Shown piece after piece: positions 27,558-33,175 of a stretch of 64,000 nt of DNA (positions within the stretch are counted from its first letter, which is position 1; every line of letters starts with the position of its first letter). The notes beneath the pieces are model-generated. The model was not told the DNA's origin. It made no database searches and saw only the letters and a list, made by a program, of their open reading frames with translations. Origin of the DNA: Mucilaginibacter xinganensis (GTDB lineage: Bacteria; Bacteroidota; Bacteroidia; Sphingobacteriales; Sphingobacteriaceae); contig JAMFSA010000105.1 of assembly GCA_026225055.1 (NCBI GenBank), forward strand, positions 25,981 through 89,980, read 5' to 3'. The translations under genes and the position numbers were made by a program.

Positions 27558-28682
27558 TTATATTATTTTAATAGTGGGTACAAAACTGTTGTTAACTTTA
27601 TTTTGGTCGTAGATAAGCAAATTGAGGTCTGCTTTAGGCATCCATGTACGGCCAAATTCTACTGCTGCCGAAACCGGCATTGCAGGAAAGACGTGCAACG
27701 TGTTTTGTTGCCCATGTCTTAATTTGATCTCATCATAAATTTTACGGCAAATTTGCCTGAACTCAATTAGTAATTCTTTACTGCGCATGAAATCATTATT
27801 CGGATCATTTACAGCAATTTCCCAAACGGCATGCGGCTCGCTGATAACCTGGCTAATTCGTTCATCGGTAATATGCCTGCTTAGGGATATCTTTAATACA
27901 GGGGTTCCTGTAAAACTTTCAGGACGTATTATACTAAAAACATGCTTATGGATATGAGTCTGCCACTCCCAACTTGCAGGTTCGCGATGCCGCTGGTAAA
28001 CATCCGCCGGAAAAATATCGGACAATAAAGTTCCGAACTTTATAAGCAGGGGCATCGGTGCCAACCCAAATACGGAAAAATGTTGAACGGGGTGATTGCC
28101 TTTCAAGGGGAGCATATGCTGGGCGAACATATCGGTCAGCTGCTTTTCTTGCAAATTCCAATACCCTGGGGTGTGATCGTTGAATGATAAATTCTTAATG
28201 CCCAATTCTATTGGCCGTATGGAAACGGGATATCGATAGGGCAGCATAGCGTAAGCAGCATCCCGATAATTGAGCGGCACCTGCTCTTGCCCAATGTTCG
28301 CACCAAACAAAACGACATGGCTTTGTTTTTCAGCTGTGAGCCCGGTTAATATACTGATTCGTTGTTCATGTCTGGCCTTCATCTCGATCAACCTCCGCGC
28401 AGGATGTTCCGATTCCTGCTCTCGATCCACGAGTCGGTGGTGCCGGTCGCAGAGCAACATAAGATTGGAAAGATCCCTTTTCAGCAATGAAGAAAATACC
28501 GGGTCGTACCTAGGCCCGCCTATGCTATCGGCATAGATATGCGCGATATAGGCGCTGTTAAATTCCGCCTTTGTCAATTCATCATAAAACAAGGGCTCAT
28601 TACAGTCTTCGTACTGACAACGTCCTGCTGACATTCCCCAAAGCCTTAATTTAACCGACTCCGGTATTTTCGTTACAGACAT
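27558..28682 (-). CDS. cap5: CBASS effector, HNH endonuclease-SAVED (Cap5-like)
   Basis: AHIYADSIGG...RDLSNLMLLCDRHHRLVDRE HNH motif; SAVED-like C-terminus; adjacent to CD-NTase. Start chosen at MSVTKIP (TAA-A-ATG with the upstream small ORF). Confidence 0.85.
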   Translation of the reverse strand: MSVTKIPESVKLRLWGMSAGRCQYEDCNEPLFYDELTKAEFNSAYIAHIYADSIGGPRYDPVFSSLLKRDLSNLMLLCDRHHRLVDREQESEHPARRLIEMKARHEQRISILTGLTAEKQSHVVLFGANIGQEQVPLNYRDAAYAMLPYRYPVSIRPIELGIKNLSFNDHTPGYWNLQEKQLTDMFAQHMLPLKGNHPVQHFSVFGLAPMPLLIKFGTLLSDIFPADVYQRHREPASWEWQTHIHKHVFSIIRPESFTGTPVLKISLSRHITDERISQVISEPHAVWEIAVNDPNNDFMRSKELLIEFRQICRKIYDEIKLRHGQQNTLHVFPAMPVSAAVEFGRTWMPKADLNLLIYDQNKVNNSFVPTIKII

Positions 28683-28683
28683 T

Positions 28684-28857
28684 TTACTTCTCCTTTCGCA
28701 CACCTTTAAAAGGATCGCCGTCTTTTTTTACGTCCATAAATCTGCCTGTTTCTGTGTCTCTTTTTACCCACTGTTCTGTTTGCGGATTATAAGTTTGACT
28801 GCGCTCTCTTACTGCGCCATTGCGATGTCCATCGCTTGGTTTACCATTTGTCGCCAT
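28684..28857 (-). CDS. 57-aa small protein preceding Cap5 (not in the supplied ORF track)
   Basis: MATNGKPSDGHRNGAVRERSQTYNPQTEQWVKRDTETGRFMDVKKDGDPFKGVRKEK*, stop codon 1 nt from cap5 ATG. Confidence 0.75.
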   Translation of the reverse strand: MATNGKPSDGHRNGAVRERSQTYNPQTEQWVKRDTETGRFMDVKKDGDPFKGVRKEK

Positions 28858-29070
28858 CTCGTTTTATTTAAGGATGAAACATTCATAAAACTACCATGCG
28901 TCACGTGCCAGGTAGCATTTTCCGGTATCAGGAATAAGAAATATGGAGAGAATAACGGCGGGCTGTTTGGAAAAATATAAAACTTTCCTACTTTAGGTGC
29001 TGTTAAGAAAATAACATGTCATACAAGTGCATCACCGGCGCAAGCCGGCCTGATTAGCTTTGAAACACTT

Positions 29071-29106
29071 AGCCTGATTTTGGACTCGTACTCCTGATCA
29101 GGCTTT
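29071..29106 (+). terminator. Hairpin, possible terminator/insulator between divergent units
   Basis: AGCCTGAT...ATCAGGCT followed by TTCTTATTTAT. Confidence 0.45.
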
Positions 29107-29291
29107 CTTATTTATATAAAGAACAATTCTTTTAAGAATAACTAAATTTACGCGTTTTCTACAGAAATATTCATTTTATAAATGATTTAATTACTAACAC
29201 TGCGTTATTTTGTCCACAATAGCCCAAATTTTAAAACAAATGGTGTTTTTAACTAAAATTTAATACCTTAGTTGATGTTACTGCCTGGCAT

Positions 29292-30581
29292 ATGTTAATA
29301 AAATTTACCGTAAAGAACTTCCTTTCATTTATGGACGAGGCGACTTTAGACCTCGAAGCGGGCTCAATACGTGAATTTCCTAAAAATATTTTTGGTGCGC
29401 GAAAAGGGACGCAGGAAATTAAACTATTGAAAAATGTTACTCTTTTCGGTGCCAACTCTTCTGGCAAAACCAATTTCTTAAAAGCTTTCTCAATGATGCG
29501 CTATTGGGTGCTGCGTGGTTATAGTGATACGACCGAAGGGAAGAAGATACCCGTAAAGCCATTTGTACTTAATACATCGACCGAAAATGGTCCAACTCAT
29601 TTCGAGGTACATTTTTTGATAGAACGCACTGGTTACCGCTATGGTTATTTAGCGGATAAGGAGCGCATACATGAAGAATGGTTGTTTACGACAACCAAGC
29701 GAAAAGAGGAATTGATATTTACCCGCAGCGGTGATGAATATAGGATCGAACGGGGCTTCCAAGCGGAACAGAAACAACGTGTGAAGATGTTCCAGGAGTT
29801 CACCAAATCCCCCGTTTTATTTTTGACAGTACTGGCGCAATGGAATATCGGATTTGCGCAGACTATTGTGAATTGGTTTCTCAGGCATCGTTTATACCTA
29901 AACAATGAATTGGACGATGATATTAATATCACTGCAGACTTATTACTTCACCCATCTTACCGAGCAATAATATATGAAATCATCAAACAGTCCGACCTTG
30001 GCTTTGCAACAATAAAGGAGGAACTTGATGATACAAACAAGATGCCGAAAAAGCATCTGGCAGCTTATTACGCACTTAACGAGGAAATACTAAAAAAATA
30101 TAAGATTAAAACCCGGCATGAACGGTTCAATGCGGCGTGGGAGGCGAAAGGATTTGTATACTTCGACCTAGAGGAAGAAGAATCTGCAGGTGCTAGGAAG
30201 TTTGTTGCTCTGCTCGGACCTATCGTAAGAGCACTGGTTGATGGGGAAATTATCTGGATCGATGAACTTGATGCCCGTTTGCACACTATGCTGGTAAATT
30301 TGCTTGTTTTAATGATCAATTCTCCGAAATATAATCAACGCGGCGCGCAGGCGGTGATCACCACGCATAATGTCCAATTGTTTAAAAAATTAAGGCGGGA
30401 TCAGATGTTTTTGCTAGAAAAAAATAAATATGGTATTTCTGCGATGTCAAGTGTCTACACCGGCAAGCCACATATCCGCGGCGACGCGATCTTAGACAAG
30501 GAATATTTGAACGCGCAGCTTGGGGGAGTTCCCAGCATTAGCGAGCAATTGTTCATCGACTTTAATAAAGATCCTGAATAA
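29292..30581 (+). CDS. AAA15/AAA21 ATPase (RloA/AbiLi-like)
   Basis: MLIKFTVKNFLSFMDEATLDLEAG, NVTLFGANSSGKTNFLKAF Walker A, IIWIDELDARLH Walker B. Confidence 0.8.
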   Translation: MLIKFTVKNFLSFMDEATLDLEAGSIREFPKNIFGARKGTQEIKLLKNVTLFGANSSGKTNFLKAFSMMRYWVLRGYSDTTEGKKIPVKPFVLNTSTENGPTHFEVHFLIERTGYRYGYLADKERIHEEWLFTTTKRKEELIFTRSGDEYRIERGFQAEQKQRVKMFQEFTKSPVLFLTVLAQWNIGFAQTIVNWFLRHRLYLNNELDDDINITADLLLHPSYRAIIYEIIKQSDLGFATIKEELDDTNKMPKKHLAAYYALNEEILKKYKIKTRHERFNAAWEAKGFVYFDLEEEESAGARKFVALLGPIVRALVDGEIIWIDELDARLHTMLVNLLVLMINSPKYNQRGAQAVITTHNVQLFKKLRRDQMFLLEKNKYGISAMSSVYTGKPHIRGDAILDKEYLNAQLGGVPSISEQLFIDFNKDPE

Positions 30582-31063: not shown

Positions 31064-32294
31064 ATGGTTATGAAAGTAAATAAATATCTTTCAATTTTAT
31101 TCTGGCTATGGCGTCAAAAAGCCAGCAAGGACGGCCTTGCTCCTATTTATGTACGTATCACTGTAAAAGGTGACCGGGATGGTTTTCATCCGGCAAAAAA
31201 ATCCATCCTGATTTCTGGGACGAAGAAACCTCAAGCGCGAACAGAGTGTGCCCCGACAGCAAATTCATTAACAGCTATATAACAAAAACAAAGGCTGAAT
31301 TGGAGCGACATTACAACCAGCTTGCATCCTTTAATGAAAAGGTAACCGCAGCAATGTTGAAAGAAGCGTATATGCCGAAACAAGTGTTGCAAAAAACATT
31401 GATGCAGGCTTTTAAGTTGCATAATAATAAATTTGCAGAACGCGTCAGCAAGAATAAAGGCAGCGATGGAACATTGTCGAGATATGAACGGCTAAAAGAC
31501 AAAGTCGAAGCTTTCCTTAAAAAGAAATACAAGATTGCTGATATTGCATTGGAAGATATTGAGATGGCGCTCGCCATTAATTTCTTTCACTACCTGACGA
31601 TGGAAAATATTGGAGATAATACAGCAATGAAGTATGTGAAAACTTTAAAGCAGATTATTGATCGCGCTATTGGTGAGGGTTGGATTAAACACAATGCAAT
31701 CACCGGCTTTAAATGCACTTACGTTGACCCGGACAGGGAAACGTTGGAACAGCACGAAATACTGAAAATGTATACCGGTAAAGCGCCTTGAAGAAGTACG
31801 TGACGTCTATGTATTTTGCTGTTTTACAGGATATGCTTACGAAACAGTTTATAACCTAGAACCGGAAAATATTTTTACAGGGTTGGATGGCAAGCTATGG
31901 ATCACAAAAGACCGGCGTAGAGGAAACAGTACCCTTATTACCCGTTGCGCTGGAAATTATTAAAAAGTATAACGACCATCCCTATTGTCTTGCAGAAAAT
32001 AAGCTATTGCCAGTTAACAGTAATTTCAGGTACAACGCCTACCTGAAAGAGTTGGCGGTAATCTGTGGGATCAGCAAGGACCTGACCACGCATACCGCCC
32101 GGCACACCTTTGCTACAACCATTACCCTCGAAAATGATGTACCTATCGAAACGATTGGCAAAATGTTGGGGCATAAAGATTTGCGGTCCACACAGAAATA
32201 CGCAAAAATAACCAAACATAAAATAAGTAATAAGATGAAGTCGCTGGAGAACAAATTATTTAATGCCGACGGATTATTAAAAGCAACCTGTTAA
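31064..32294 (+). pseudogene. Tyrosine recombinase (Bacteroidota phage integrase type), multiple frameshifts
   Basis: Arm-binding N-term (LSILFWLWRQKASKDGLAPIYVRITVKGDR), SAM-like core, catalytic HTARHTFATTITLENDVPIETIGKMLGHKDLRSTQKYAKI in three frames. Confidence 0.85.
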
Positions 32295-32299
32295 ATCCC

Positions 32300-32328
32300 A
32301 TTTGACATCACAAATTGTGATGTCAAAT
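32300..32328. repeat. Perfect palindrome P1
   Basis: ATTTGACATCACAA-A-TTGTGATGTCAAAT, 14-bp arms. Confidence 0.95.
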
Positions 32329-32363
32329 TTACAATGATAACAGAACAAAAGAATAATTATAAA

Positions 32364-32391
32364 ATTGGAGGTAACAATTGTAACCTCCAAT
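32364..32391. repeat. Near-perfect palindrome P2
   Basis: ATTGGAGGT-A-ACAATTGT-A-ACCTCCAAT. Confidence 0.9.
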
Positions 32392-32424
32392 CTATCGAAC
32401 GACTAACGTTAATATTTAATATCA

Positions 32425-32964
32425 TGGAACAACCAATAATAATACCGGATGAAATTGTAATAAGCAAAATCTATTTTGTTCGCAACCAAAAAGTTATGAT
32501 TGACAGTGATCTGGCAGAATTATACAGTGTAGAGACAAAAAGACACATAGAGCAGGTCAACAGAAACATTTACAGATTTCCTGAAGATTTCATGTTTCAA
32601 CTTACTGAAAACTAAATTTGAGACTTTGAGGTCGCAAATTGCGACCTCAAAAAGAGGTGGCCGCAGGTATGCTCCGTATGTATTTACAGAACATGGCGTA
32701 TTAATGTTATCAAGCGTATTAAACGGTAAACAGGCGATCGAAGTAAACATTCAAATCATGCGTATTTTTACACGAGTTCGCCAAATGTTTTTAGACAACA
32801 CAGAGCTTCGCCTCGAAATTGAAAAAATCAAAAGCAAACTGGATAACCAGGATAAAAACATGGAGATAGTTTTTCGATATCTCGATGAATTAATAACAAC
32901 AAAAGAAAGTGCAAAATCACGTAAAAGAATCGGTTATAAGCCTGACGAACTTCAAGAAGAGTAA
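32425..32964 (+). pseudogene. ORF6N-domain protein, frameshifted
   Basis: IYFVRNQKVMIDSDLAELYSVETKRHIEQVNRNIYRFPEDFMFQLTEN + LRSQIATSKRGGRRYAPYVFTEHGVLMLSSVL in two frames. Confidence 0.85.
32625..32651. repeat. Perfect palindrome P3, inside the ORF6N coding sequence
   Basis: TTTGAGGTCGCAA-A-TTGCGACCTCAAA, 13-bp arms. Confidence 0.95.
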
Positions 32965-32965
32965 C

Positions 32966-33140
32966 GGCAACGATTAAAAATGATATGCATATTGAAACAG
33001 CAGGTAAAATGTCGGGGCATAAAGATCTGCGTTCTACCCATAAAATACGTCAAAATCACCAGACGAAAATAAGCAATAGCATGAAATCGCCCTCGTGTAA
33101 ATTGTTTGATGCTGATGGACTGGCAATAGCTACCTGTTAA
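32966..33140 (+). pseudogene. Second integrase 3'-end fragment
   Basis: Encodes NDMHIETAGKMSGHKDLRST...SNSMKSPSCKLFDADGLAIATC*, parallel to the C-terminus at 32134-32294. Confidence 0.8.
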
Positions 33141-33144
33141 ATTG

Positions 33145-33175
33145 AACTTGAAGTCGCAAATTGCGACTTCAAGTT
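33145..33175. repeat. Perfect palindrome P4
   Basis: AACTTGAAGTCGCAA-A-TTGCGACTTCAAGTT, 15-bp arms. Confidence 0.95.

Follow-up and report, generated by a model that had tools for sequence, protein, structure and literature searches.

Nearly all genes of the ORF6N family contain, within their own coding sequence, a 25-bp dyad-symmetric DNA site that is kept beyond coding need, and the bases of this site track the residues of the predicted DNA-recognition helix in the protein encoded by the same gene. We interpret these palindromes as binding sites of ORF6N proteins, with the internal site probably serving for autoregulation of the gene in which it resides, a reading to which we assign a probability of about 0.7. 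The family corresponds to Pfam PF10543, to the PADLOC candidate defense system PDC-S05, and to PHROG families labeled 'anti-repressor'; the gene described below and all the relatives used for comparison are members.

Palindromes and genes of the window locus

In the window, that is, the entire 64-kb stretch of DNA that was analyzed, three perfect 25-bp palindromes with a 1-nt center, P1 (32302-32326), P3 (32626-32650), and P4 (33148-33172), were identified, with full extents of 29, 27, and 31 bp, respectively (Table 1). These are the only 25-mers in the whole window with at least 11 of the 12 possible pairs, compared with a Markov-1 expectation of 0.25 per 64 kb at this threshold and none at 12 of 12, and a search for the common layout pattern that allows for 3 mismatches at most retrieves exactly these three, with no matches in 100 shuffled versions of the window. 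Chance origin of P1, P3, and P4 is thus excluded, in agreement with the sequence-only reading, which had described a family of covarying palindromes at this locus and judged it unlikely to be fortuitous. The peptide LRSQIATS that it assigned to P3 was likewise borne out by translation. Its further claim, that four elements share one layout, stands for these three palindromes but not for P2 (32364-32391), which is of even length, lacks the center base, and includes an A/A mismatch; P2 is a degenerate relative of the family rather than a perfect member. When the host genome was searched by sequence pattern, the core RTCRCAANTTGYGAY was found four times in 6.64 Mb, three of the occurrences being P1, P3, and P4. 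The fourth (C95:92862-92886; L416, approximately 1496-1520) lies inside a palindrome of roughly 41 bp, directly 3' of another integrase, and no ORF6N gene was noticed alongside.

Table 1. Positions of the palindromes and genes at the ORF6N locus of the 64-kb window
Feature	Position	Strand	Description and basis
Tyrosine integrase, frameshifted into pieces	31064..32294	+	Pfam Phage_int_SAM_5 and Phage_integrase on pieces
P1	32300..32328	none	Perfect palindrome, half-site CATCACA
P2	32364..32391	none	Degenerate upstream site, -60 to -33 from the ORF6N start
ORF6N gene, 5' part	32424..32615	+	63 aa, includes the helix-turn-helix; translation; Pfam ORF6N profile 1-50/86, E 1e-19
Predicted recognition helix codons	32535..32567	+	TKRHIEQVNRN; AlphaFold2 helix 41-50
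ORF6N gene, 3' part	32617..32964	+	Other frame (FETLRSQIATSKRGG...); Pfam ORF6N profile 53-86/86, E 1.5e-8
P3	32625..32651	none	Internal ORF6N site, half-site GGTCGCA
Integrase 3' end, second copy (fragment)	32977..33140	+	Ahead of P4; direct repeats D1 and D2
P4	33145..33175	none	31-bp perfect palindrome behind the duplicated integrase 3' end, half-site AGTCGCA

The locus consists of a broken tyrosine integrase, P1, P2, a split ORF6N gene with P3 inside, a second copy of the integrase 3' end, and P4. Both halves of the ORF6N gene score above the 27.8-bit cut-off of the PF10543 profile (71 and 35.2 bits), and the PADLOC PDC-S05 models match them at E-values of 4e-27 and 3e-32 (3e-69 for the reference relative, L009). 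The 5' part ends early via a frameshift just ahead of P3, whereas the relatives are intact, so that the window copy probably makes no working protein. The integrase is 66% identical to an intact homolog (L039) and contains 4 internal stops. A direct repeat (32220-32329 and 33066-33175, 71% identical) spans the integrase 3' end before P1 and before P4, and these two palindromes have a common flank because each follows a copy of the same integrase end. P1 is located 7 bp past the integrase stop and 122 bp ahead of the ORF6N start, and its 25-mer is identical to the internal site of an ORF6N gene with the residues R42/V43/Q46 (L046). P2 is placed where related ORF6N genes have their upstream sites, and P3 occupies the gene position typical of the family (see below). 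In the integrases nearest to that of the window (L039/L449, L451), a dyad of the ORF6N type is found 7-8 bp past the stop, with no ORF6N gene after it. The single other ORF6N gene of the host genome (L004, contig C93) also lies behind an integrase and has a related dyad, TTAAGGTCACAAAATGTGACCTCAT, in its upstream region; comparison with relatives indicates that its internal palindrome appears to have been half removed by an in-frame deletion. With the window copy frameshifted, both ORF6N copies of this genome thus seem to be damaged. The locus adjoins defense genes (27561-30581), namely, a SAVED-HNH CBASS effector on the minus strand and an AbiLi-like AAA ATPase.

A dyad inside and upstream of ORF6N genes

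For the survey of the family, ORF6N genes were picked according to their profile scores, without regard to the palindrome, from the same order, then the phylum, and then other phyla and viral contigs; a minority came via loci retrieved with the palindrome pattern. A 25-bp palindrome that forms 10-12 of the 12 possible pairs was found at a constant gene position in 96% of 280 distinct ORF6N genes, which represent many phyla. At least 10 of 12 pairs are reached by 1.1% in a control stretch taken from these genes, and random synonymous recoding of the same peptides yields a mean of 7.2 of 12 pairs. The region encodes a flexible loop of the ORF6N domain itself and is read in two frames: 244 genes translate it as L-x-S-Q-x-x-x-S or a variant thereof, and 35 genes, with the frame shifted by one, as E-x-V-T-N-C-D-x-L or a variant. 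Given that the two peptides are unrelated, it is the nucleotide dyad that is conserved, not the peptide; the frame of the site switched about 19 times on the tree. Most of the variable pairs change on both arms, as illustrated by pair 9-17, which among 160 distinct 25-mers is AT in 70, GC in 50, CG in 34, TA in 2, and unpaired in 4.

The genomic settings of ORF6N genes vary, as in the case of one located between recG and rplM (L007; gene names from sequence reading). Two tiny plasmids of Segatella copri (L403, 4.1 kb, and L404, 3.0 kb) have no annotated genes apart from one for replication and one for ORF6N; a Treponema plasmid has an ORF6N gene within a type I restriction operon (L408), a Parabacteroides plasmid has three in tandem (L410), and a Bacteroides plasmid has one flanked by DUF3990 and Fic genes (L413). 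More than one palindrome occurs in the coding sequence of several genes (L103, L108, L169, L173, L188, L191, L332), which have two or three different ones arranged in tandem; in L169, one of these matches the class of the gene itself and one does not. In ORF6N proteins of about 300 aa (L163 and others), the C terminus is extended, and the extension, which has no Pfam identification, includes an HDRFMIID motif reminiscent of a phospholipase-D-like active site.

Apart from the internal site, at least one dyad is present within 200 bp before the start in 66 of 328 ORF6N genes (about 20%). Of the 77 upstream sites, 32 match the code of their own gene, described below, on both arms, compared with 20.5 after shuffling (P 0.0006), and 37, including P1, match it on neither arm; the latter look like sites of other ORF6N classes or chance matches. 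The internal site is truly lost in two genes (L119 and L346), both of which have a perfect upstream site of their own code. In one locus (L207; G280:C160, approximately 1795-1945), four different dyads, one for each of the classes E, K/L, Q, and R, are arrayed with an exact spacing of 34 bp, flanked by one truncated and one intact ORF6N gene. A small number of sites stand alone, at a distance from all ORF6N genes. The Bacteroidetes-type promoter consensus was not consistently found upstream of ORF6N genes.

The palindrome is not a general property of KilA-N genes, a possibility that was rejected with no such palindrome in 21 of 23 KilA-N loci, and the profile of the Rha family (PF09669) yielded just six matches, one of them above the cut-off. 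A fold search of the PDB gave no significant match, the best hits (E 0.27) being MerR-type DNA-bound regulators, and a sequence search for solved structures recovered only coiled coils and designed helical proteins, none of them close.

Predicted recognition helix and half-site bases

When sequences are weighted and the background is corrected for, the mutual information between the site bases and the protein columns that lie outside the palindrome is highest for base 9 with residues 46 and 43; residue 46 with base 8 and residue 42 with base 6 come next. Residues 42, 43, and 46 all belong to a helix (41-50) in the AlphaFold2 model (pLDDT above 90), which, in this model, looks like the second helix of a helix-turn-helix. 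The codons of this predicted recognition helix lie about 20 codons upstream of the palindrome, a distance of about 75 bp between helix and site. The correspondence is nearly deterministic at several positions: E at residue 46 goes with CG at bases 8-9 in 88 of 88 cases, Q with CA in 116 of 120, and K with TC in 28 of 29, whereas R goes mostly with C at base 9; at bases 10-11, R at residue 50 goes with CA in 258 of 259 cases and N or S with AA in 8 of 8; and K at residue 42 goes with G at base 6 in 172 of 174. These relations are consistent with the textbook contacts of Gln with A, Glu with C, and Lys or Arg with G. The code is equal in both reading frames of the site (E with CG, 76 of 76 and 12 of 12; Q with CA, 101 of 103 and 15 of 17). 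Bases 1-5 covary with residues 66-78, which adjoin the palindrome, and this may reflect wing contacts or plain linkage.

The window locus can be read with the same rules. The K, R, E, and R of the helix peptide correspond to residues 42, 43, 46, and 50 in the numbering of L009, so that the predicted half-site is xGTCGCA; P3, which agrees with all three rules predicted from K42/E46/R50, and P4 fit this prediction, whereas P1, with a half-site of the R42/Q46 class, does not.

The helix and the site also change together. In 130 pairs of sister genes, joint changes were found in 49, a change in the bases only in 1, a change in the residue only in 19, and no change in 61 (Fisher test, 7e-19). On a tree built without the helix and palindrome columns and analyzed by parsimony, 56 of 78 base-pair changes fall on the same branch as a change of residue 46 (expected 16, maximum 28 in 5000), with about 80 specificity switches in total. 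With only about 75 bp between the helix and the site, recombination can transfer both at once, which inflates the number of joint changes but leaves the code itself unexplained. Template-switch mutation alone was rejected, given that it offers no account of a correlation that reaches a helix about 20 codons from the site. Among genes fetched after the rule was fixed, 45 of 46 obey it at residue 46 and 47 of 47 at residue 50; this test set includes plasmids of Sulfuricurvum, Haliovirga, Butyrivibrio, and Segatella, along with a few near-duplicates (L364/L366/L371, L396/L397), and 40 of the fetched loci come from the phylum that dominates the training set. Since the bases of the site track the residues of the predicted recognition helix, ORF6N proteins very probably bind the dyad inside their own gene. 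The suggestion of the sequence-only reading that the palindromes are targets of the ORF6N DNA-binding protein thereby gains strong support.

Interpretation of the sites and related systems

Several other interpretations of the palindromes have to be weighed against protein binding. A stem of 10-12 bp, as deduced from the sequence, could form in RNA, so that the palindrome might act in the ORF6N mRNA as a hairpin, be it a terminator, an attenuator, or a processing site. G-U should be acceptable in such a stem, yet G-U combinations show a depletion no weaker than that of other mismatches (23 observed vs 145 expected under column independence, with 47 vs 163 for A-C), and the synonymous change of TCA to TCG, which would yield G-U at pair 9-17, accounts for no cases at all. 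This depletion points to a protein-bound DNA dyad. In addition, the site is located within an open reading frame and its bases follow the residues of a predicted DNA-recognition helix, and the RNA hairpin or terminator was rejected as extremely improbable. Even less credible is the proposal, made from the sequence alone, that the palindromes are recombination sites, which would be those of the neighboring tyrosine integrase. P1 and P4 do come after integrase ends, and an ORF6N gene lies directly behind such an integrase in 41 of 355 cases. However, among 30 related integrases, 23 have no such palindrome and no ORF6N gene in their vicinity and only 4 have a site-like palindrome past the stop, and most ORF6N genes that contain the site have no adjoining integrase; with no regular association with integrases, a tyrosine recombinase core site was discarded.

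The third proposal of that reading, mobile palindromes seeded from the gene, here taken to include seeding into it and a likeness to Rickettsia palindromic elements, fares slightly better but is still very unlikely. Several genes have two or three different in-frame tandem sites, the frame of the site changed repeatedly on the tree, and a few solitary copies exist, all of which would be compatible with mobility. Nevertheless, 24 of 29 sampled loci found with the pattern are in or beside ORF6N genes, the host genome has only 4 core sites over its 6.6 Mb, with three belonging to the window locus, and mobility predicts no helix-base code. The whole-genome pattern search did not reveal many copies across unrelated genes and thus lends no support to scattered mobile elements, which could account for a minor part of the sites at best. 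That search also addressed genome-wide occurrence of the palindromes without ORF6N association, and it leaves the interpretation of the palindromes as ORF6N targets standing.

Whereas the position, dyad symmetry, frame independence, and helix-base code of the sites are evident from the sequences, physical binding, dimerization, and repression by ORF6N proteins are inferred. The second helix of the helix-turn-helix (residues 41-50) would read both half-sites of the 25-bp dyad, presumably in a dimer, with residue 42 corresponding to base 6, residue 46 to bases 8-9, and residue 50 to bases 10-11. Nearly every ORF6N gene would then hold the site of its own protein in the coding sequence, with the site and the helix changing together, and the protein bound to the internal site, as well as to the upstream site in about 20% of the genes, would block transcription of its own gene. 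Such autoregulation would be independent of the promoter, the internal site being able to work behind any promoter, which would suit genes that move horizontally and come to lie behind promoters unrelated to them. At the window locus, P3 would be the internal site, P2 and P1 upstream sites between the integrase and the ORF6N gene, and P4 a site behind the decayed second copy of the integrase end. Autorepression appears to be the likeliest use of the internal site, and the upstream sites, together with the pattern of loss in L119 and L346, are suggestive in this regard.

Less probably, although this alternative is likelier than those above, the internal site is bound for a different purpose, namely, exclusion, whereby incoming copies of the gene or element are silenced or attacked, or an anti-phage function. 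ORF6N genes are patchily distributed by horizontal transfer (142 of the 201 sampled genomes of the order, with 1-9 copies each), often lie beside integrases and, in single cases, beside Fic, RhuM, abortive-infection, or type I restriction genes, and sites of several specificity classes can occur together, as in the L207 array. PADLOC files ORF6N as a candidate defense system, although most of these candidates are without experimental validation (PMC12988326). There is, however, no sign of a nuclease or of an effect in trans, and the operator-like upstream sites fit plain autoregulation.

If the internal sites indeed serve autoregulation, they have precedents. In lac O2, an auxiliary operator located within lacZ, and other intragenic operators, a dyad of the repressor type is embedded in coding sequence, sometimes with an upstream partner, as in ORF6N. 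Unlike lac O2, the ORF6N site is located in the gene of the regulator itself, is present in nearly all members of the family across phyla and in two frames, and co-evolves with the recognition helix. Intragenic operators as such are therefore already known; what is new is a family-wide, frame-independent site in the regulator's own gene that co-evolves with the helix. Rickettsia palindromic elements and PARCELs are likewise palindromes within protein-coding genes, but are repeats distributed among different genes or tandem tracts and have no known reader (PMC2996958), in contrast to ORF6N genes, with usually one site per gene, a fixed place, and a likely reader identified. The mitochondria of nematomorphs show perfect inverted repeats kept despite coding constraint, too; these are long, up to 284 bp, and lie in mitochondrial protein-coding genes, and the abstract mentions no protein-DNA code (PMC6649704). 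Among the open-access literature, we found no paper tying ORF6N to palindromes, a binding site, or a recognition code, and subscription papers could hold one.

On a more tentative note, ORF6N might represent a self-addressed class of regulators, with an obligate operator in the coding sequence and with paralogs (E, Q, K, R, or L at residue 46) forming a network in which residents silence incoming copies. We regard this extension as possible but doubtful. If it is true, a moving copy carries an address known to its own protein and to related ones, and the recognition network is recorded in arrays such as that of L207, with one site for each of four classes.

Taken together, these observations provide ORF6N, a very common family without an assigned function that is listed among candidate anti-phage genes, with a concrete putative target and an amino-acid-to-base code. 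They indicate that a probable regulatory site can persist within coding sequence and stay there even when the reading frame changes. With the protein and its site in the same gene, the family amounts to a natural record of protein-DNA specificity switching, and the long-standing question of how a regulator can switch specificity and yet retain its sites becomes directly testable in ORF6N.
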